Source of the DNA: an uncultured Ruminococcus sp.
Lineage (GTDB): Bacteria; Bacillota; Clostridia; Oscillospirales; Ruminococcaceae
Direction: 5' to 3'
Assembly: GCA_945877315.1 (NCBI GenBank)
Contig: CAMCRP010000008.1
Coordinates: forward strand, 1-64,000
DNA: 64,000 nt
Below are positions 18,665 to 59,333 of this stretch, one piece after another. The position numbers and the translations under genes are program-made. The notes beneath the pieces are model-generated. The model saw only the letters and a program-made list of their open reading frames with translations. It was not told the DNA's origin and did not search any database. Numbering within the stretch: the stretch's first letter is position 1; each line of letters opens with the position of its first letter.

Positions 18665-20056
18665 TTACTTTTTAAGCTTTCTGGCTTTAAGCTTTCTTGC
18701 AGCATATCCCTCGATAAAACGAAGCTCGCCACGCTCGATAGCAAGTGCATCATCGGGAACATTCTTTGTGACCGTCGTTCCCGCTGCCGTATATGCGCCG
18801 TTTCCGACTGTTACGGGGGCAATAAGATTGGTATTGCAGCCGATAAACGCTTCATCTCCGATAGTCGTGCGGTACTTGTTTGCCCCGTCATAGTTGGAGG
18901 TCACCGTGCCGCAGCCGAAGTTTACGTGCTTGCCCACGTCACTGTCCCCAACATATGTGAGATGTGAAACCGCCGTGTCCTCGCCGATGTCGGAGTTCTT
19001 TATCTCGACAAAATCGCCTATCTTAACGCCGTCCCTGATACGGCTGCCGGGTCTTAGCTGAACGAATGGACCTATCTTGACGTTGTTGTCTATCTGCGAA
19101 TCATACGCCTGAACGGTGTTCAGATGAGTGCCGTTTCCGACGATAGTATTGTCAATAAGGCAGTTGGGACCGATAACGCAGTTTTCGCCAATAACGGTCT
19201 TTCCCGTCAGGATAGTGCCCTGCAGAATACAGGTGTTTGCACCCACCTTAACGTCCCTGCCGATAGTTACGCCGTCCGTGCAGAGGAACTCAACGCCCTC
19301 GTCCATAAGCTTTTCTATAACACGCTTTCTTGCCACATCGTTGAGCATAAGCATACCCTTGCGGTCATTTGCCCCGAGGACTGCATCGGGATTTTCCGAA
19401 ACGAAGGCACCCGCTCTGTCACCCGCCGAAAGCAGAATAAACACGGAATCCGTCAGATAATATTCACCCTGAGAATTATTCGGCTTCAGCTCGCCCAGCG
19501 CATAAAGCAGACGCTCCGCATTGAACCAGTAAGCCCCCGAATTTATCTCCTTTATCTTCTTCTGCTCGTCTGTGGCGTCCTTTTCCTCAACGATACCCGT
19601 AATACCGTTTCCGTCGTGATCTCTGAGGATACGTCCGTAACCCTTTGGCTCGTCAATTTCGGAGGTGATGACCGTAACGGCGTTCCCCTCGGAAATATGC
19701 GTTTCAAGGGACTTTTTGATAGTTTCGGAGTCGATAAAAGGCGCATCTCCGTTGAGAATGAGCACATTCCCGCCCGAATGTTCCCGAATGAAATCGGAGG
19801 CAGTCATAACGGCGTGTCCCGTACCCTTTCGCTCCTGCTGGAAAACGGTCTTGTACCGTCCGTCAGCCCATTTGTCGATAGCGTCGGCGTTAAAGCCCTT
19901 GACAATGCACATATCCTCCACGCCCGATTCCTCGCAGGCTCTGACCACCCATTGGAGCATAGGCTCGCCCAGTACCTTTAATAAGGGCTTTGGCAGCTCG
20001 GTTTTCATTCGCTTGCCCTGACCGCCCGCCAGAATTATTGCACAGTTATTACTCAT
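18665..20056 (-). CDS. glmU: Bifunctional UDP-N-acetylglucosamine pyrophosphorylase / glucosamine-1-phosphate acetyltransferase
   Basis: From the ATG at 20056 the protein is 463 residues. The N-terminal nucleotidyltransferase has LAGGQGKRM and the PKPLL lysine motif; residues from about 250 on form the hexapeptide left-handed beta-helix of the acetyltransferase. It makes UDP-GlcNAc for cell wall synthesis. The usual LAAGxGTRM reads LAGGQGKRM. The frame stays open to 20173 through a heptad repeat, which would add a false N-terminus of 39 residues; AAAGGGG before the ATG at 20056 decides the start. Confidence 0.96.
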
Positions 20057-20089
20057 AGTATTATCCCCTTTGCGGAATACTTTATGTAA

Positions 20090-20118
20090 ATGTGGAATGT
20101 GAAAAGTGGAAAGTGGAG
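20090..20118. repeat. Heptad repeat array (GTGGAAA type), glmU leader
   Basis: About four units of GTGGAAT/GTGAAAA/GTGGAAA lie between the family A element and the glmU start. No inverted partner is present here. Confidence 0.7.
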
Positions 20119-20149
20119 CTTTGAAATTGACAATTCGCTTTTCACACAT

Positions 20150-20276
20150 TAATACTAAACACCCATTAATCACGGTAATCTCTCGGCGTAAAAACCCATA
20201 AACAAACTGTTTTCAACAGTTTTAAGCTTCTTTACGCCGATTTCTTCTCCGTGATTTAAATGGTGTTTAGTATAAA
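20150..20276. repeat. Palindromic element family A, copy 1
   Basis: A 127-bp imperfect palindrome has ends ATACTAAACACC and GGTGTTTAGTAT. Nearly matching inner arms contain AATCACGG and TCGGCGTAAA, and there is a small apical hairpin (AAACTGTT and AACAGTTT). The arms match the copy at 42.77 kb, while the apex differs. It lies in the leader of glmU. No reading frame is present. Confidence 0.8.
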
Positions 20277-20364
20277 CTGTTTCCGAATGCTTTGGAATTA
20301 CTTTTTTATCTGTCAAACATTGAATTTTACCCAAATCTTACACGGAAAATATCCCATACCTTAT

Positions 20365-20393
20365 ATTATGACAGAAAAGTATGAATAGTTCAA
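20365..20393 (-). promoter_or_regulatory. Promoter of the glmU-prs run
   Basis: TTGAAC (20393-20388), 17-nt spacer, CATAAT (20370-20365) on the minus strand. The implied leader of about 300 nt holds the family A palindrome. Confidence 0.5.
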
Positions 20394-20501
20394 TAGTATT
20401 TTGCAATCTTAGGCGTTTTGGATAAAATATAGTCAAATTGCACGAAAATGTTATGCAAAATTCTAATACCAAAAGGTATGGTAAAATTCACAATTATCTG
20501 T

Positions 20502-20507
20502 TATAAT
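20502..20507 (+). promoter_or_regulatory. Minus-10 box of ppdK
   Basis: TATAAT sits 73 nt before the ppdK start codon. No good -35 box lies 17 nt upstream, so the promoter is only half supported, or it depends on an activator. GGAGGT 9 nt before the ATG at 20580 fixes the start of translation. Confidence 0.45.
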
Positions 20508-20579
20508 ATAGTTATGTTCACTATGGGGTCATTCTGCCCCAATGGTGAAGAAATCAAAATTAACGGAGGTAAACAACCA

Positions 20580-23219
20580 ATGGCAAAGAAATGGGTCTAC
20601 ACCTTTAAAGAAGGTAATATGACTATGAGAAACCTGCTCGGCGGTAAGGGTGCAAACCTCGCTGAGATGACTGAGATCGGTCTCCCCGTTCCTCAGGGCT
20701 TTACTATCACAACAGAAGCTTGTACTCAGTACTATGAGGACGGCAGAAAGATCAATGACGAGATCATGGCTCAGGCTATGGAAGGCGTTAAGTGGATGGA
20801 AGAGGTAAACGGCAAGAAGTTCGGCGACCTCAAGAACCCCCTCCTGGTTTCCGTACGTTCCGGCGCAAGAGCTTCCATGCCCGGTATGATGGACACTATC
20901 CTCAACCTCGGTCTTAACGACGATGTTGTTGCTGCAATGATCGCAGGCAACCCCGATCCCGCTTTCGAAAGATTCGTATATGACTCTTACAGAAGATTTA
21001 TCCAGATGTTCTCCGACGTTGTTATGGAAGTCGGCAAGAAGTATTTTGAGCAGCTCATCGACAAGATGAAGGAAGAAAAGGGCGTTCAGTACGACGTTGA
21101 CCTGACTGCTGCAGACCTCAAGACTCTGGCTGAGCAGTTCAAGGCTGAGTATAAGAAGCAGCTCGGCAAGGACTTCCCCTCCGATCCCGTTGAGCAGCTG
21201 AAGCTCGCTATCGAGGCTGTTTTCCGTTCCTGGGACAATCCTCGTGCAAACGTATACCGTCGTGACAACGATATTCCTTACAGCTGGGGTACTGCTGTAA
21301 ACGTAATGCCCATGGTATTCGGAAACCTCAACAATGAGTCCGGTACAGGCGTTGCATTTACTCGTGATCCCGCAACAGGTGAGAAGAAGCTCATGGGTGA
21401 GTTCCTCAAGAACGCACAGGGCGAGGACGTTGTTGCAGGCGTTCGTACTCCTATGCCTATCGCTCAGATGGAGCAGGAGTTCCCCGAGGCTTATGCACAG
21501 TTCATTCAGGTTTGCGAAACTCTCGAAAACCACTATCACGATATGCAGGACATGGAGTTCACTGTTGAGAACAAGAAGCTCTACATGCTCCAGTGCCGTA
21601 ACGGTAAGAGAACCGCTCAGGCTGCTCTCAAGATCGCTTGCGACCTCGTAGACGAAGGTCATAAGACAGAGCAGGAAGCAGTTGCTATGATCGATCCTCG
21701 TAACCTGGACACACTGCTTCACCCTCAGTTCGATGCTAAGGCTCTCAAGGCTGCTGCACCTCTGGGCAAGGGTCTGGGCGCATCTCCCGGAGCTGCTTGC
21801 GGTAAGGTTGTATTCACAGCTGATGACGCTGAGGCTTGGGACGCTAAGGGCGAAAAGGTTATCCTCGTTCGTCTGGAAACATCTCCCGAGGACATCACAG
21901 GTATGAAGGTCGCTCAGGGTATCCTGACCGTTCGCGGCGGTATGACCTCTCACGCTGCTGTTGTTGCTCGTGGTATGGGTACATGCTGCGTTTCCGGCTG
22001 CGGCGACATTAAGATGGACGAAGAGAACAAGAAGTTCGAGCTCGGCGGAAAGGTATTCCACGAGGGCGACGTTATCTCCATCGACGGTTCCACAGGTAAC
22101 ATCTACGGTGAGGCTATTCCTACCGTTGATGCTCAGATCGCAGGCGAGTTCGGCAGAGTTATGGCTTGGGCTGACAAGTACAGAAAGCTTAAGGTAAGAA
22201 CAAACGCAGATACTCCCGCTGACGCTAAGAAGGCAAGAGAGCTGGGTGCTGAGGGTATCGGTCTTTGCCGTACTGAGCACATGTTCTTTGAACCCTCCAG
22301 AATTGCAGCATTCAGAGAGATGATCTGCTCCGATACAGTTGAAGAAAGAGAAGCAGCTCTTGCTAAGATCGAACCTATGCAGCAGGCTGACTTTGAGGCT
22401 CTCTACGAAGCACTTGAGGGCTGCCCCGTTACTATCAGATTCCTGGATCCTCCTCTTCACGAATTCGTTCCTACTGAGGAAGCTGACATTGAAGCTCTTG
22501 CTAAGGCTCAGGGCAAGTCCGTTGAAGCTATCAAGAACATCATTGCAGGTCTGCACGAGTTCAACCCCATGATGGGTCACCGTGGATGCCGTCTGGCTGT
22601 AACATATCCCGAGATCGCTAAGATGCAGACAAAGGCTGTTATCAAGGCTGCTATCAACGTTAAGAAGGCTCACCCCGATTGGAACGTTAAGCCCGAGATC
22701 ATGATCCCTCTCGTAGGCGAGGTTAAGGAGCTTAAGTTCGTTAAGGACGTTGTTGTTAAGACTGCTGATGCTGAGATCGCTGCTGCTGGTTCCGACCTCA
22801 CATATGAAGTTGGTACAATGATCGAGATTCCTCGTGCTGCTCTCACAGCTGACGAGATCGCTAAGGAGGCTGACTTCTTCTGCTTCGGTACTAACGACCT
22901 GACTCAGATGACCTTCGGCTTCTCCAGAGATGACGCAGGCAAGTTCCTGAACGCTTACTACGATACAAAGATCTTCGAGAACGATCCCTTCGCTAAGCTG
23001 GACCAGGCAGGTGTCGGCAAGCTGATGGAAATGTCCATCAAGCTTGGCAAGCCCGTTAATCCCAAGCTCCACATCGGTATCTGCGGTGAGCACGGCGGCG
23101 ATCCTACATCTGTAGAGTTCTGCCACAAGATCGGTCTTGACTATGTATCCTGCTCACCCTTCCGTGTGCCTATCGCAAGACTGGCTGCTGCTCAGGCTGC
23201 TATTGCTGATAACAAGTAA
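20580..23219 (+). CDS. ppdK: Pyruvate, phosphate dikinase
   Basis: From the ATG at 20580 the protein has 880 residues, close to the family norm. The N-terminal ATP-grasp domain has GGKGANLAEM and SVRSGARASMPGMMDT. The phosphohistidine domain has GGMTSHAAVVARGMG, with the catalytic His and its regulatory Thr. The C-terminal PEP/pyruvate barrel has the Cys in GICGEHGGD. It interconverts pyruvate, ATP and phosphate with PEP, AMP and PPi; in fibre-degrading clostridia it serves PPi-linked glycolysis. Codon use is far more restricted than in neighbouring genes (GCT, GTT, CTC, AAG), a sign of high expression, and this creates an 865-codon antisense frame that is not a gene. Confidence 0.98.
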   Translation: MAKKWVYTFKEGNMTMRNLLGGKGANLAEMTEIGLPVPQGFTITTEACTQYYEDGRKINDEIMAQAMEGVKWMEEVNGKKFGDLKNPLLVSVRSGARASMPGMMDTILNLGLNDDVVAAMIAGNPDPAFERFVYDSYRRFIQMFSDVVMEVGKKYFEQLIDKMKEEKGVQYDVDLTAADLKTLAEQFKAEYKKQLGKDFPSDPVEQLKLAIEAVFRSWDNPRANVYRRDNDIPYSWGTAVNVMPMVFGNLNNESGTGVAFTRDPATGEKKLMGEFLKNAQGEDVVAGVRTPMPIAQMEQEFPEAYAQFIQVCETLENHYHDMQDMEFTVENKKLYMLQCRNGKRTAQAALKIACDLVDEGHKTEQEAVAMIDPRNLDTLLHPQFDAKALKAAAPLGKGLGASPGAACGKVVFTADDAEAWDAKGEKVILVRLETSPEDITGMKVAQGILTVRGGMTSHAAVVARGMGTCCVSGCGDIKMDEENKKFELGGKVFHEGDVISIDGSTGNIYGEAIPTVDAQIAGEFGRVMAWADKYRKLKVRTNADTPADAKKARELGAEGIGLCRTEHMFFEPSRIAAFREMICSDTVEEREAALAKIEPMQQADFEALYEALEGCPVTIRFLDPPLHEFVPTEEADIEALAKAQGKSVEAIKNIIAGLHEFNPMMGHRGCRLAVTYPEIAKMQTKAVIKAAINVKKAHPDWNVKPEIMIPLVGEVKELKFVKDVVVKTADAEIAAAGSDLTYEVGTMIEIPRAALTADEIAKEADFFCFGTNDLTQMTFGFSRDDAGKFLNAYYDTKIFENDPFAKLDQAGVGKLMEMSIKLGKPVNPKLHIGICGEHGGDPTSVEFCHKIGLDYVSCSPFRVPIARLAAAQAAIADNK

Positions 23220-27313: not shown

Positions 27314-27574
27314 ATGTCCAAGCAAGGAATGAAGCGTCCCGAACACACCTATGTTCAGCCGTGGAACGAAGCGGCAGCTGTCCCCGAAATACAGGGCAAA
27401 GCCAAGCACGGCAAGGCAAAGGCCAACCCCATTATTGCGGGAACAAAGCCCCCCGCACAAAAGGTTTTCCACACCGAGCGTCCCATTTCTAAGGTTTATC
27501 CCGTTATTGACAACGACCTTGCACGGGATAATCTGGAAAATGATATGACTGCGGCGGACCTGCAAGACCTTTGA
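27314..27574 (+). CDS. Small basic hypothetical protein
   Basis: The ATG at 27314 with GAGGTG 7 nt upstream gives 86 residues, rich in Lys, Pro and Ala in the first half and acidic at the end (DLARDNLENDMTAADLQDL). There is no membrane helix or known motif. It lies 21 nt after the small membrane protein, at the end of the spoIIP run, and before an inverted heptad repeat that may stop transcription. Confidence 0.55.
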   Translation: MSKQGMKRPEHTYVQPWNEAAAVPEIQGKAKHGKAKANPIIAGTKPPAQKVFHTERPISKVYPVIDNDLARDNLENDMTAADLQDL

Positions 27575-27578
27575 AACA

Positions 27579-27660
27579 GTGTTGAGTTATAAGTGTTGAG
27601 TGTTGAATTATTTTTGGATCTCATTATAATTCAACACTCAACATTCAACACTTAACATTT
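27579..27660. repeat. Heptad repeats, inverted pair (GTGTTGA type)
   Basis: GTGTTGA-type units (27579-27608) and the inverted CAACACT type (27636-27660) surround a 27-bp AT-rich centre, after the spoIIP run. Folded as RNA this would be a long hairpin. Confidence 0.75.
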
Positions 27661-27667
27661 TTTTCGC

Positions 27668-27696
27668 TTGACTTGATGGTGTTTTTTGTGTACAAT
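27668..27696 (+). promoter_or_regulatory. Promoter in front of the interrupted GNAT gene
   Basis: TTGACT (27668-27673), 17-nt spacer, TACAAT (27691-27696). AAGGAGG follows at 27710-27716, 7 nt before the ATG at 27724. Confidence 0.7.
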
Positions 27697-27723
27697 AAAA
27701 ATATCAAAAAGGAGGAATGGCAG

Positions 27724-27735
27724 ATGATAGCATAA
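27724..27735 (+). pseudogene. Orphan start of the GNAT gene (ATG ATA GCA TAA)
   Basis: A perfect promoter and ribosome binding site lead into only three codons and a stop. The expected GNAT body resumes in another place at 28410, so this is read as the detached 5' end of that gene. Confidence 0.5.
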
Positions 27736-27816
27736 TATAAGTTTTGAGGCGTGGATAGATCTTAAAACTTGGGAAATATCTTCGGTTTATCCAATAAAGT
27801 AAAGGAGAAAGTATGT

Positions 27817-28404
27817 ATGCGATTTGTAGATGTGTTTCCGTATAATCGTGATGAGTATAGCCAAGTAATATGGTTTTTTGAAGAATGTATTGAACGTGAT
27901 TTTCAGGCGGTTATAGATAACTATGCACACGGACATCAATATAGCTTTGAATCCTGTGGATTGAATTTGCCAAACGGAGAGGATAACATAATGTATAAAG
28001 GTCCTTTTGCGTGGGCAGGTGATCCGTCTTCAGATATGTGCCCTGACGAATATGATCAGCTAGATTTCAAAATGTTTATTATATGTTTTGAGCTTGCTGC
28101 TAAGGTGTTTCTCCTTAATAATAGTTCTTATGAGTATCCAATGAGGATATTCGATAGTTTGAAGCTAATCAGAAAAAACTATACAAATGTTTTATGGCTT
28201 ATAGAGCATTTCTATGGTGCAGAGTTCTACGTTTGCGATAATCATGGAGTATGTACCGGTGAACATCACGGTAAAGAATGGGGAGAGAAGTGGTATGAAA
28301 CATATGGAAAGTTATTATATTTTGATGATGTAGATCAAATAGTAGAAGCGCAGTTTAGACAAGTATCACTTAAAATTAAAGGTATATATGATACTATCGC
28401 GTAA
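27817..28404 (+). CDS. AT-rich hypothetical protein inserted in the GNAT gene
   Basis: The ATG at 27817 with AAAGGAG upstream gives 195 residues rich in Tyr, Phe, Trp, Asp and Glu. It is soluble and acidic, with no signal peptide. I do not recognise the family. The composition (acidic, aromatic, single domain) is like polymorphic-toxin immunity proteins, but that is a guess. Its codon use and clearly higher A+T content differ from all neighbours, and it lies between the detached start and the body of an acetyltransferase gene. Both facts suggest horizontal arrival. It would be transcribed from the former GNAT promoter. Confidence 0.7.
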   Translation: MRFVDVFPYNRDEYSQVIWFFEECIERDFQAVIDNYAHGHQYSFESCGLNLPNGEDNIMYKGPFAWAGDPSSDMCPDEYDQLDFKMFIICFELAAKVFLLNNSSYEYPMRIFDSLKLIRKNYTNVLWLIEHFYGAEFYVCDNHGVCTGEHHGKEWGEKWYETYGKLLYFDDVDQIVEAQFRQVSLKIKGIYDTIA

Positions 28405-28409
28405 TGTAA

Positions 28410-28829
28410 ATTTCCGATTATGACGGCGTTTATGACCTTTGGATAAACACCCCGGGAATGGGTCTGAACACTGCCGATGACAGCCGTGAGGGCATAGAAA
28501 AATATCTCAAACGCAACCCCACCACAAGCTTTGTCGCTTTGGACGGAGAAAAAATCGTGGGCGTAATAATGGCGGGACATGACGGCAGACGGGGATTTAT
28601 CCATCACACCGCCGTTCTTTCCGAATATCGGGGGCGGCATATCGGCAAAGCTCTTGTGGAACACGCCATGTCCGCATTGGACAAGGAGGGCATAAACAAG
28701 GTGGCTTTAGTGGCATTTCAAAGGAATGAAGTCGGCAACGGCTTCTGGGAGAAGCTGGGCTTTTCCGTCCGTAATGATTTGGTTTATCGGAATAAGAATA
28801 TTCACGATTTACATAGGATTGATACTTAA
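28410..28829 (+). pseudogene. GNAT acetyltransferase, 5' end separated by insertion
   Basis: From 28410 the frame reads ISDYDGVYDLW, then the GNAT core with the acetyl-CoA loop SEYRGRHIGKALVEHA and GFWEKLGF. An in-frame TAA stands directly before it (28407-28409) and no start codon exists for the first 16 residues, which should hold the first beta strand. Translation could restart at the ATG at 28458 (123 residues), but no Shine-Dalgarno sequence is seen. GNAT relatives of the YpeA type start about 8-10 residues before the DVxxLW-like motif, which fits loss of just the first codons. Probably inactive. Confidence 0.65.
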
Positions 28830-28915
28830 GGGGCGACCCCTTTGTCAATTCGTTGGTATATTTGCTAAATGAGCAAGGTTTGTGGCTCGGTACCGTTAAA
28901 ACTTTTTTAAATGCA

Positions 28916-28961
28916 ATGCTCCCGCCGAGAGGTCGAAAACTCTCGGCGGGAGCATTTTTAT
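28916..28961 (+). terminator. Strong convergent terminator
   Basis: A perfect 16-bp stem (ATGCTCCCGCCGAGAG and its inverse) with an 8-nt loop is followed by TTTTTA. It separates the GNAT remnant from the leftward flotillin operon and may work both ways. Confidence 0.88.
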
Positions 28962-29122
28962 TCAATTTCTGCATCCTCCGCATTTAAAATATCCTCTTCC
29001 GAAACTCCAAGCATTTCTATAACTTCTTTTTCGGAATAGGTTTTATCCTCGGAGGAGTTCATTCTCCCGACAGCTTCAAATAAAAGCTGCTGATTTTCAT
29101 CAGATAAAACATTATCAAGCAT
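28958..29122 (-). CDS. Small acidic protein overlapping the flotillin 3' end
   Basis: An ATG at 29122 gives 54 residues (start MLDNVLSDENQQLLFEAVGR, end in an acidic tail). It overlaps the flotillin stop by 8 nt, with AGAGGAAA upstream, so translation is probably coupled. A YSEKEVIEMLGVSEEDI helix recalls the C-termini of small antitoxin-like or regulatory proteins, but no toxin gene is adjacent and I give no function. It is the last gene of the operon. Confidence 0.55.
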   Translation of the reverse strand: MLDNVLSDENQQLLFEAVGRMNSSEDKTYSEKEVIEMLGVSEEDILNAEDAEIE

Positions 29123-55234: not shown

Positions 55235-56620
55235 TTATTTCTCTGCAAATTTCTCAAACTTATATCTCTTAACAGCTGCGTCGTTGATAGTCAGGGAAAC
55301 AGCCTCTGCCCAAGTGTCAACCATAGCGGAGAATTCCTCTTCCTTCATTTCGTAAAGGGCAGCGTTCTTGTTGGTGTCGTAATATGTTTCGTCGCTGAAA
55401 AGCTCCATTCTGTAAACCAGATAATAGTACTCGCCGTCCTCAATGATCTTGTACTCGCCGTCCTTCATAGTGTTGAAAATGGCGTCGTTTACGTTTTTGG
55501 AGGGTGAGTAGTCGCCCTTCTTAATGACCTTCTCGTTATTTACCGCTTCAACATCTTCCTCTGCATCTGCGGAAGTGTCCTCGGCAGGCTCGGTTTCTGC
55601 GGCGGTGGTTTCGGTGTTATCGGAGCTTACGGGCTCGGTTTCGGACTCGTCGGTGTCGTCGTCTGCTTCCTCGTCGGAGGTATCGTCGGTTTCTTCCTCG
55701 TCAGCTTCCGTTTTGGGAACGGTGGTTTCCTCTTCGTCCTCGTTTACGGAGGTTTCTTCCTCGGGGGAATCCTCATTTGCAGGGCTTTCGGGAACGGTCA
55801 CTTCGCTTACATTGTCATCTTCGTCAAAGACAGTGACAGTGTTTCCCTCTGCGTCCTCAATAGCGATGATCTGTCCTGCACCCTCGGTGTTATCCTCCTC
55901 GGGCTCTTCGTCTGCACCCGTCAGCTCGCTCCAGTAAGCGTCATACTCGGCAATAAGAGCATCAAAGCTTTCTCCGCTCTCTGCACGTGCAAGGTAATCC
56001 TCAGCCATCTTCATGACCTCAGCCTTGCCTTCGGATTTCAGAAGATTTCCCTCTGCGTCCTTGAGGTTCAGGGCGATATACTTAACTCTTGCATAATTAT
56101 CCAGCATATGTGCCTTGATATCCTCCTCGGAAACGGGGGTGATACCGTCCTCGGAATTGTAATATTTCATAAATATCTCGTCACGCTTGATGGAATTGAG
56201 GTAAATGTCACGATAGCTTTCCTTTCCTATGCCGTAGCCCTCAAACATATCGCCGTACTGCGACCACATCTGCTCCACCATATAATCGGCGTAAGATGTG
56301 CTGTACTCGTCAAGCTCCAGACCCATTTCGGTGAATTTAGCGTCAATGGCAGCCTGATTTCTGAGATTCTTCTCGGTTTCCTTTGCCATCCAGTCCTTAG
56401 CGGGCATTTCTTCGATGGTTGAAGAGAAAACGTCGGTGTCGGTTTCGGCTTTTTTGCTTTCTGCGTCAAAATACGCATTCATAGCGTGATAGATGTATAT
56501 ACCTGCTCTGTACTCGGTATCGCCCGACTTTGCGCCCCATGAAGTATCGGAGCAGCCTGTGCAGCTCAGGGCAACAGCAAGGGCTGCGGCACCTGCCAGA
56601 ATTTTTTTAGCTTTAAACAT
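55235..56620 (-). CDS. PrsA/SurA-like foldase lipoprotein with acidic linker
   Basis: The 461-residue protein has a lipoprotein signal ending in SCTGC (Cys23), an N-terminal helical chaperone domain of the SurA/PrsA type (about residues 30-235) and a C-terminal segment (about 375-455). Between them lies a very acidic Glu/Asp/Thr-rich linker of over 100 residues (about 236-350). A parvulin isomerase domain is not clear; the segment around KVIKKGDYSPSKNVNDAIFN may be its remnant. It would help fold secreted proteins outside the membrane. It has its own promoter and terminator. Confidence 0.72.
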   Translation of the reverse strand: MFKAKKILAGAAALAVALSCTGCSDTSWGAKSGDTEYRAGIYIYHAMNAYFDAESKKAETDTDVFSSTIEEMPAKDWMAKETEKNLRNQAAIDAKFTEMGLELDEYSTSYADYMVEQMWSQYGDMFEGYGIGKESYRDIYLNSIKRDEIFMKYYNSEDGITPVSEEDIKAHMLDNYARVKYIALNLKDAEGNLLKSEGKAEVMKMAEDYLARAESGESFDALIAEYDAYWSELTGADEEPEEDNTEGAGQIIAIEDAEGNTVTVFDEDDNVSEVTVPESPANEDSPEEETSVNEDEEETTVPKTEADEEETDDTSDEEADDDTDESETEPVSSDNTETTAAETEPAEDTSADAEEDVEAVNNEKVIKKGDYSPSKNVNDAIFNTMKDGEYKIIEDGEYYYLVYRMELFSDETYYDTNKNAALYEMKEEEFSAMVDTWAEAVSLTINDAAVKRYKFEKFAEK

Positions 56621-56688
56621 TCGGATATTCCTCCAAAAATAATTTCAATAAGTAATGCGGGGACAGCCTGCCCTTACGCATACAGATT

Positions 56689-56717
56689 ATTATAACACAC
56701 AAACCGTCCGATGTCTA
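56689..56717 (-). promoter_or_regulatory. Promoter of the PrsA-like gene
   Basis: TAGACA (56717-56712), 17-nt spacer, TATAAT (56694-56689) on the minus strand. Confidence 0.7.
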
Positions 56718-56807
56718 GTATTTTCGCAGTTTTTCATCTGTTTTTCACAAACATAAGGATTTTGTTTGGCGGATTTGATACATTTATTACTATTACCGTT
56801 GCAAATG

Positions 56808-57092
56808 TGGAAAGCGGAGTTGTTAGTGTTAAGTGTTGAGAGTTGAGTGATGAATGTTGAGTGTTGAGTTAAATGTGAAAAGTGGAAAGTGGAATTTTTT
56901 TAGTGTTTAGTGTTGAGAGTTGAGTGTTGAATTATTTGGGCTGTTTACGAAATATTGCAGGGGCAAAAGTGCATATATGCTTTTGCCCATACAATAACGT
57001 TACTTTTACAGATTGCCAACATTCAACACTAAAAACTTCACTTTTCACTCTCCACATTAACATAAAGCTCCACTTTTCACTTTTCACATTTG
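56808..57092. repeat. Composite heptad unit with palindromic centre (longest)
   Basis: Mixed GTGTTGA and GTGGAAA units (56808-56937) and their inverted forms (57021-57092) flank a centre with GGGCAAAA and TTTTGCCC around GCATATATGC. The gap 56621-57254 holds this unit, the leftward promoter and the fusA-like promoter; no gene is seen in it. Confidence 0.8.
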
Positions 57093-57165
57093 GTAAACCC
57101 TTGTGCAATCTTAACAAAATCAATCATCAAGTTTATAATTATCTGTATAAATTACAAATAAACTA

Positions 57166-57194
57166 TTGAAATCATCACAGAAAAGTTATATAAT
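57166..57194 (+). promoter_or_regulatory. Promoter of the EF-G-like gene
   Basis: TTGAAA (57166-57171), 17-nt spacer, TATAAT (57189-57194), 60 nt before the start codon; AAAGGAG lies upstream of the ATG at 57255. Confidence 0.8.
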
Positions 57195-57254
57195 AGTAAT
57201 TACCGTAGTTCATACTACAAAAAATACAGAATATCCGAAAAGGAGCGATTCAAG

Positions 57255-59333
57255 ATGAAACATTTCAGCGTTTCCAATATACGCAATATCACCCTCGCAG
57301 GTCACGCAGGTTCGGGAAAAACTTCCCTTGCCGAAGCTCTGCTTTTCAAGGCGGGAGTTACCGACCGTCTGGGAAAGACAGCTGACGGAAACACCGTTTG
57401 CGATTTCGACCCCGAGGAGATCAAGAGAAAGGCGTCGCTGAACACCTCCGCCGCTTCCTTTGAATATAACGACATCAGAATTAATCTTCTGGACACTCCG
57501 GGACTGTTCGATTTCGCCGCAGGTATGTACGAAGGCGTTGCCGCAGCGGGTACGGTAATGATAACCGTTTCCGCAAAATCGGGCGTTAAGACCGCTACCG
57601 AAAAGGCTTACGAGCTGGCTGTTGCCGCAAAGCGTCCCAAGATGTTCGCCGTTACAAAGATCGACGACCCCGACGCTAACTTCTATAACGTCCTCACCGA
57701 CCTTAAAACGGTTTTCGGTCCCACAGTATGCCCCGTTGTTGTCCCCGTTATCAAGGACAGACAGATCGTTTCCTACGTAAACCTCATTGAAATGAAGGCA
57801 TACAAGTATGACGAAAAGGGCAATGCCGTTGAAACGGAAATGCCCACCGCCGAGATCTCCGAAAAGATGGAATACCGTATGGACGGTCTTATTGCCGCAT
57901 TCTCCGAAGCCGTTGCCGAAACAGACGAGGCTCTCATGGAGAAATTCTTCGAGGGCGAACCCTTCACTCAGAAGGAGCTTATCCACGGTCTGCATAAGGG
58001 AATGAACGAGGGTATCATCACTCCCGTTGTCTGCTGCTCCGCATTTACGGGCGCAGGCATTGATATGCTTTTGAAGGAGATCGAGCTGCTGCTCCCCGCT
58101 CCTCAGGATAACGCACCCGTTTTCGGTACCGACACAAAGGGCGAACCCGCCGAGATCGCATACAGCGAAACAGATCCCCTTGCTGCTTACATATTCAAGA
58201 CAGTTGCCGACCCGTTTGTAGGCAAAATGTCCTATATGAAGATAATCAGCGGACGCATTTACTCGGGCTGCGACTGCATCAACGCTTCTACGGGACAGCC
58301 CGAAAAGATAGGCAAGCTGTACTCCGTATGCGGCAAAAAGCAGACGGAAATTTCCGAAGCCTTTGCGGGCGACATTGTTGCGGCTGCAAAGATTGGTGCC
58401 TCCACCTGTGACACTCTCTGTGACCCGTCAAGAGTCATCGCCGCAGAAAAGACAGTTTACCCTGAGCCTTGTTACAGAATGGCTGTTAAGGCTAAATCTC
58501 AGGGCGATGAAAGCAAGATATCGGGCGGACTTGCAAAGCTCCTTGAAGAGGATAAGACCCTTTCTTATGAGAAGGATCCCTTCACCTCCGAGATGATACT
58601 TTCCGGTCTTGGCGAACAGCATCTGGAAATTGCCGCAGCTAAGCTGAAAGCAAAATTCGGCGCAGACATTCTCCTGTCCGAGCCTCAAATCGCATACAGA
58701 GAAACTATCCGCAAAAAGGTCAAGGCGGAAGGCAAATATAAGAAGCAGACAGGCGGCCACGGTCAGTACGGTCATGTTTGGATAGAATTTGAGCCCTGCG
58801 TTTCCGACGATCTCGTGTTTGAAGAAAGAGTATTCGGCGGCGCTGTTCCGAGAAACTTCTTCCCCGCTGTTGAAAAGGGACTGCAGGAGTGCGTAAAGAA
58901 GGGCGTTCTGGCAGGCTGTCCCGTTGTTGGTCTGAAGGCTATACTGGTTGACGGCTCCTACCACCCCGTTGACAGCTCGGAAATGTCCTTTAAAACAGCC
59001 GCTTCTCTTGCTTATAAAGAAGGCTTGAAGCAGGCAGACCCCACTATTCTTGAGCCCATAGGAAAGCTTATCGTTACCGCTCCCGACGATAACACGGGAG
59101 ATATTATGGGCGATCTGAACAAGAGAAGGGGCAGAGTCCTCGGTATGAATCCCGTCAAGAAGGGCGTTACCGAGATAGAAGCTGACGTTCCCATGAGAGA
59201 GATGCAGTCCTTTACCATGACGCTCCGTCAGATAACCAAGGGCAAGGGCAGCTTCAAGTTCACCTTCCTCAGATATGAACAGCTCCCCGCAAACCTTGTA
59301 AGTGACGTTATTCTCAATTTGCAAAATGACTAA
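57255..59333 (+). CDS. Elongation factor G paralogue (EF-G2 type)
   Basis: The 692-residue protein has all EF-G domains. The GTPase motifs are GHAGSGKTS (G1), DTPG (G3) and TKID (G4). Domain IV has GGHGQYGHVWIEFEP and the C-terminus RGRVLGM. G1 lacks the GHIDAGKTT form of canonical EF-G and G4 has Thr for Asn, as in the FusA2 group of translation GTPases that coexist with true EF-G. It may act in recycling or under stress rather than in normal elongation; the true fusA is presumably elsewhere. It is monocistronic. Confidence 0.9.
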   Translation: MKHFSVSNIRNITLAGHAGSGKTSLAEALLFKAGVTDRLGKTADGNTVCDFDPEEIKRKASLNTSAASFEYNDIRINLLDTPGLFDFAAGMYEGVAAAGTVMITVSAKSGVKTATEKAYELAVAAKRPKMFAVTKIDDPDANFYNVLTDLKTVFGPTVCPVVVPVIKDRQIVSYVNLIEMKAYKYDEKGNAVETEMPTAEISEKMEYRMDGLIAAFSEAVAETDEALMEKFFEGEPFTQKELIHGLHKGMNEGIITPVVCCSAFTGAGIDMLLKEIELLLPAPQDNAPVFGTDTKGEPAEIAYSETDPLAAYIFKTVADPFVGKMSYMKIISGRIYSGCDCINASTGQPEKIGKLYSVCGKKQTEISEAFAGDIVAAAKIGASTCDTLCDPSRVIAAEKTVYPEPCYRMAVKAKSQGDESKISGGLAKLLEEDKTLSYEKDPFTSEMILSGLGEQHLEIAAAKLKAKFGADILLSEPQIAYRETIRKKVKAEGKYKKQTGGHGQYGHVWIEFEPCVSDDLVFEERVFGGAVPRNFFPAVEKGLQECVKKGVLAGCPVVGLKAILVDGSYHPVDSSEMSFKTAASLAYKEGLKQADPTILEPIGKLIVTAPDDNTGDIMGDLNKRRGRVLGMNPVKKGVTEIEADVPMREMQSFTMTLRQITKGKGSFKFTFLRYEQLPANLVSDVILNLQND

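Follow-up and report, generated by a model that had tools for sequence, protein, structure and literature searches.

A toxin-tailed candidate orphan immunity gene inserted behind the promoter of a broken GNAT acetyltransferase gene in an uncultured Ruminococcus sp.

Introduction

In an uncultured Ruminococcus sp. (assembly GCA_945877315.1), the start of a GNAT acetyltransferase gene is separated from its body by an AT-rich stretch with a gene of its own. What is the DNA that came to lie there, and how did it enter? The window analyzed in this study is the 64,000-nucleotide stretch of contig CAMCRP010000008.1 that contains this locus. A preliminary description took the arrangement for a single-gene cassette that had captured the promoter, and guessed that its product was an immunity or antitoxin protein. 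In most cases, the gene found directly behind a polymorphic toxin gene encodes the matching immunity protein (PMC3482391, PMC9086364). Orphan immunity genes have been well described (PMC9086364, PMC7400221, PMC12247911), including CDI and T6SS genes of this kind that have remnants of toxins close by (PMC9086364, PMC7400221, PMC5361080). In this study, the insertion site was compared with an intact relative, and the two ends of the insert and its gene were analyzed.

Results

The GNAT gene has lost its start

All features given here lie on the forward strand. The GNAT promoter, TTGACT-17-TACAAT (27668-27696), has its -35 box at 27668-27673 and its -10 box at 27691-27696, with a 17-bp spacer; it now stands 5' of the inserted gene. 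The ribosome site AAGGAGG and the leftover start ATG ATA GCA, closed by a TAA that the junction created, extend over 27710-27735 (ATG-ATA-GCA-TAA at 27724-27735). Downstream, the remaining GNAT gene (28395-28829) consists of native bases from TATCGC onward, as judged from its sequence, Pfam, and its relatives. It reads ATG TAA where a relative has ATG AAA; this TAA (28407-28409) lies just 5' of the body, and the frame restarts directly after it at ATT 28410 and ends at 28829. The promoter, the dead start, and the stop before the GNAT body are thus as the preliminary description had them. The first usable start in the body is ATG 28458, and Pfam Acetyltransf_1 matches 28458-28826 (3e-17). The neighbors are ordinary chromosomal genes, with SpoIIP upstream and an SPFH/Band 7 protein downstream.

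The preliminary description would have been contradicted by the same arrangement in orthologous GNAT genes of distant species, or by a family that naturally starts at 28458. Neither was found. The frame is open upstream of the junction point in 80 of 80 related loci, most of which start 6-9 codons upstream; none is closed at the junction, and all extend 5' of 28458, which rules out a natural start at that position. Because the frame is open across the junction in all 80 loci, the GNAT gene of the window is a broken gene with a lost start. In a functional GNAT, the start, the first strand, and the helix are joined to the body; here, the insert severs the start and a stop stands at 28407. In one further genome, G057, this GNAT family is represented by several broken copies, which contain internal stops (contigs C275, C220, and C81).

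The empty site defines a foreign insert of 662 bp

To find the empty site, the GNAT body was searched against genome contigs and whole genomes. As the preliminary description had proposed, an intact GNAT gene was found in a close relative of the same genus (L040, JAGAJN010000019.1; Oscillospiraceae MAG RGIG8500 from water deer cecum), where the GNAT protein is 94% identical and stands in the same gene context. This site reads GGCAA TTG ATA GCA TAT CGC ATA ATG AAA ATT TCC GAT TAT GAC, and its start is intact (translation M I A Y R I M K I S D Y D). The relative also keeps the promoter, as TTGACT-17-TAAAAT. In DNA, the flanks of the window agree with L040 to 89% over about 1,330 bp upstream, where the alignment stops at the junction, and to 91-94% downstream.

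Comparison with L040 and with L011 (G001:C7) placed the inserted DNA between GATAGCA and TATCGC, at 27733-28394. The net insert is therefore 662 bp; the 675 bp between the dead start and the GNAT body, taken earlier as its size, is too long. Host bases are not missing at the site, and the TA at the left edge repeats a host TA, so the overlap is at most 2 bp. The insertion after the third GNAT codon is real. The inserted DNA is foreign by composition: its GC content is 34% against 47.6% for the window, and the third-position GC content of the 195-codon frame is 29%, compared with 54-56% for the nearby GNAT, SpoIIP, and acetate kinase genes. The insert was observed in a single draft genome, an assembly of 138 contigs.

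Over the 139 codons of the GNAT body, the window and its relative are separated by 23 synonymous nucleotides and 8 amino-acid changes, and the body carries no further stop or frameshift. This suggests that most of the divergence is older than the gene loss, and that the insertion is probably recent.

Several other features of the window were observed. Two more AT-rich spots, 20001-20700 and 56601-57300, have a GC content of 32-36%, about as low as that of the insert. An intergenic repeat of about 72 bp (AAGGGGCGACCCCTTTGTCAATTCGT...GAGCAAGGTTTGTGGCTCGGTACCG) lies at 28828-28900, directly after the GNAT stop; about 20 copies, 78-90% identical and in both orientations, occur in the genome, and the repeat resembles those of the MITE or REP type. 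Another intergenic repeat, TCAACACTCAACATTCAACACT, at 27620-27660, has about 15 genome copies and occupies the same place in the same-genus relative.

The left end of the insert resembles the end of an EndoU toxin

The insert opens with one reading frame of 23 codons, HNISFEAWIDLKTWEISSVYPIK, followed by TAA (27731-27802); its terminal residues are FEAWIDLKTWEISSVYPIK. An end of a BECR/EndoU-type RNase toxin was suspected for this tail before the tests were run. A search of 148 genomes with PF14436 (EndoU) found three places in two genomes, and none in the strain's own genome. A separate search of 255 genomes with the tail peptide gave ten weak non-self matches, one of which, NNLKFVGYIDAKSGKISNFYP in genome G126, was the exact end of one of the three EndoU domains. 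A profile was then built from four EndoU ends, of which G126 supplied two, and G017 and a CdiA toxin of solved structure (5hkq) one each. Against it, the tail peptide scored 18.8 bits, while the highest score among about 17,000 C-termini of open frames taken as controls, and 5,000 shuffles, was 9.7 bits. In the alignment, the codons AAT ATA AGT TTT correspond to N-L-K-F of EndoU. The peptide alone registered nothing in Pfam, NCBIfam, or PDB, for which it is too short a query, and it occurs once in its own genome. The left end thus resembles EndoU tails, and by these comparisons the insert starts some 23 codons short of the end of a putative EndoU-like RNase toxin gene, the upstream gene of a foreign locus. 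An inverted repeat, AAGTTTTGAG/CTTAAAACTT (27739-27770), was considered as the end of an element and rejected; it falls within the toxin-tail codons and was taken as chance.

A 195-codon gene lies directly behind the toxin tail

The stop of the tail is overlapped by a ribosome-binding site, AAAGGAG (27801-27807), which precedes a 195-codon gene, P0001 (27817-28404). The earlier account of AT-rich DNA with a single 195-residue protein holds for the composition and for this frame, but the left 70 bp are also coding, and belong to the end of a different gene. P0001 takes its last two codons and its stop from host DNA (GAT ACT of the insert is followed by ATC GCG TAA), and so its native C-terminus was probably shortened a little.

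P0001 is matched by nothing in Pfam, NCBIfam, PHROGs, PADLOC, or PDB, nor in phages, plasmids, or viral contigs, and about 1,200 genomes of the phylum yielded noise only. The search for this protein in similar cassettes, suggested by the preliminary description, accordingly returned no relative from any of these collections. Weak matches in L120, L121, L125, L131, L139, L161, and L163 were discarded, since they were to other proteins, in the wrong frame, or limited to a few residues. Viral contigs searched for P0001, EndoU, and immunity genes gave nothing, as did an Rfam search of 27500-29000. A single-sequence fold made without an alignment had a pLDDT of 36, too low to be informative. P0001 looks like CdiI_4 (PF18624) by eye; this assignment was rejected, for it matches neither Pfam nor NCBIfam, including immun_CdiI (NF033826), its hhalign probability against CdiI_4 is 1.3%, and in a test with shuffled and natural controls its HMM score lies inside the range of its own shuffles.

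The EndoU loci found elsewhere offer a guide to its position. In G126, three CdiI_4 immunity genes stand behind an EndoU toxin of 772 aa (L181, 2787-6972 of G126:C14), and a second, decayed EndoU tail separates the second of them from the third; this locus represents a local, displaced-module array. The PT-HINT/EndoU toxin of G017 has behind it a 149-aa protein that no Pfam family matches. Where it can be recognized, therefore, the gene behind an EndoU toxin is an immunity gene, and its family varies. Since P0001 lies directly behind a toxin tail, its position marks it as a probable immunity protein. It adjoins the remains of a polymorphic toxin gene, given the tail score and the EndoU end of G126, and its genome contains no EndoU or LXG domain that could belong to a cognate toxin. 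P0001 is thus most likely an orphan immunity gene, with its function read from its position, and it would guard against the toxins of other cells. The toxin tail lends the earlier guess of an immunity or antitoxin protein indirect support, although P0001 matches no known immunity family.

The junctions look like illegitimate recombination

The preliminary description had noted an imperfect 18-bp direct repeat at the junctions. The repeat is present, at 27727 and 28396 with 14 of 18 positions equal, but an equally good match arose in 7 of 400 local shuffles, and the two copies differ in origin: the left one joins host GATAGCATA to the toxin codons AAT ATA AGT TTT, and the right one is the native GNAT start ATCGCGTAATGTAAATTT. 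A target duplication is therefore ruled out. The empty site already has the near-tandem ATAGCAT/ATCGCAT, from which the repeat partly arises.

The insert edge and the host have a few bases in common (CATA), which fits microhomology-mediated (illegitimate) recombination. In an alternative alignment, the left junction may lie after GCATAAT, with one 7-bp unit lost. The insert cuts the toxin gene near its end and enters host sequence before its own stop, as a random fragment would. It has neither terminal inverted repeats nor a second copy in its own genome or in 99 relatives. Defined ends or terminal inverted repeats and further copies, which would mark a mobile cassette or transposon, are thus absent, and the join looks like illegitimate recombination rather than transposition. 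Homology-facilitated illegitimate recombination has been proposed for displaced effector-immunity modules (PMC5361080).

Discussion

The locus is best explained as a fragment of a foreign polymorphic-toxin locus, carrying a candidate orphan immunity gene and the scar of a toxin tail, that was inserted in a GNAT gene behind its promoter; we give this reading a probability of roughly 0.72. The fragment would start 23 codons from the end of an EndoU-type RNase toxin gene and finish just before the termination codon of the gene that follows, and would have entered behind the third codon of a conserved gene for a GNAT acetyltransferase. A circular fragment and one short crossover could achieve this without loss of host DNA. 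The GNAT promoter may now drive the dead leader ATG ATA GCA TAA and then the 195-codon gene with its own ribosome site; only the three-codon dead start and the toxin tail lie between the promoter and the inserted gene. The P0001 protein is predicted to bind the RNase domain of a rival's toxin and inhibit it, in a cell that lacks a toxin of this kind. The GNAT gene was given up for this candidate immunity gene. Expression of this gene at the cost of the acetyltransferase is the likely outcome, as the arrangement suggests.

A mobile single-gene cassette with its own recombination ends, targeting TA or the GNAT start and carrying P0001 as cargo, would account for the precise insertion without host loss, for the TA at both edges, and for the 18-bp repeat at the junctions. 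Host sequence and toxin codons account for the repeat, however, and the left end lies inside a coding sequence while the right end lacks a stop of its own. Neither terminal inverted repeats nor a second copy accompany it, and relatives of P0001 are absent from all collections searched. Such a cassette is therefore improbable; what stands from the preliminary description is a foreign single gene behind the GNAT promoter, with its empty site. An assembly artefact from two false joins might be considered for a draft contig, in an assembly of many contigs with an insert observed in no other genome. Both flanks are syntenic with L040, however, and the two joins share one position in a single gene, with an overlap of 0-2 bp, which is not expected from two chance misassemblies; this explanation is highly implausible.

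The fragment may also derive from a foreign locus in which the 195-codon gene is another gene behind the toxin, or an unrelated one, and not an immunity gene. P0001 has no family match and the tail is short, at 23 residues, which leaves this alternative some room; it is unlikely, since the tail matches EndoU ends far above the controls and the gene in this position usually encodes immunity. A broader proposal builds on the reading as an immunity-gene fragment. Immunity genes might move among gut Firmicutes as single, promoterless, toxin-tailed pieces that are captured behind the promoters of dispensable genes without host loss, and P0001 might found a new EndoU immunity family; we regard this as speculative and doubtful.

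The exact empty site shows one route by which a bacterium can acquire what is likely a gene for resistance to interbacterial RNase toxins, in which a bare gene is placed behind an existing promoter, rather than in an island or array. In this case, the price is the host gene to which the promoter belonged. The leftover toxin tail serves as a label; immunity proteins evolve rapidly and toxin ends remain recognizable, so searches with such tails could reveal orphan immunity genes that sequence families miss.

Among known systems, integron gene cassettes are similar in placing a promoterless single gene behind the promoter of the insertion site; here, in contrast, no attC-like site is seen by eye, no integrase adjoins, the insertion is internal to a GNAT gene, and a toxin tail forms the left end. 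In the EndoU CdiA-CT/CdiI pair of E. coli STECO31 (PDB 5hkq), the C-terminal end of the toxin resembles the 23-residue tail, whereas its CdiI (129 aa, CdiI_4) is not detectably related to P0001 (195 aa). Displaced T6SS effector-immunity modules of Vibrio also retain an old immunity gene after its effector was displaced, with the same kind of recombination proposed (PMC5361080), but their remnants stay at the secretion locus, while the piece described here sits elsewhere in the chromosome, at an unrelated site. Orphan CDI and T6SS immunity genes and interbacterial defence islets, such as the SAIDI-1 islet of Salmonella (PMC7400221) and those of gut Bacteroidales (PMC12247911), share with this locus an immunity-type gene without its toxin in the genome and a horizontal acquisition, and toxin remnants can adjoin them. 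Unlike these islets and arrays, the Ruminococcus locus has one gene within an unrelated gene, behind the promoter of that gene. Within a known class of genes, a single candidate orphan immunity gene in a broken, unrelated gene, with a toxin tail as its tag, is an unusual form.
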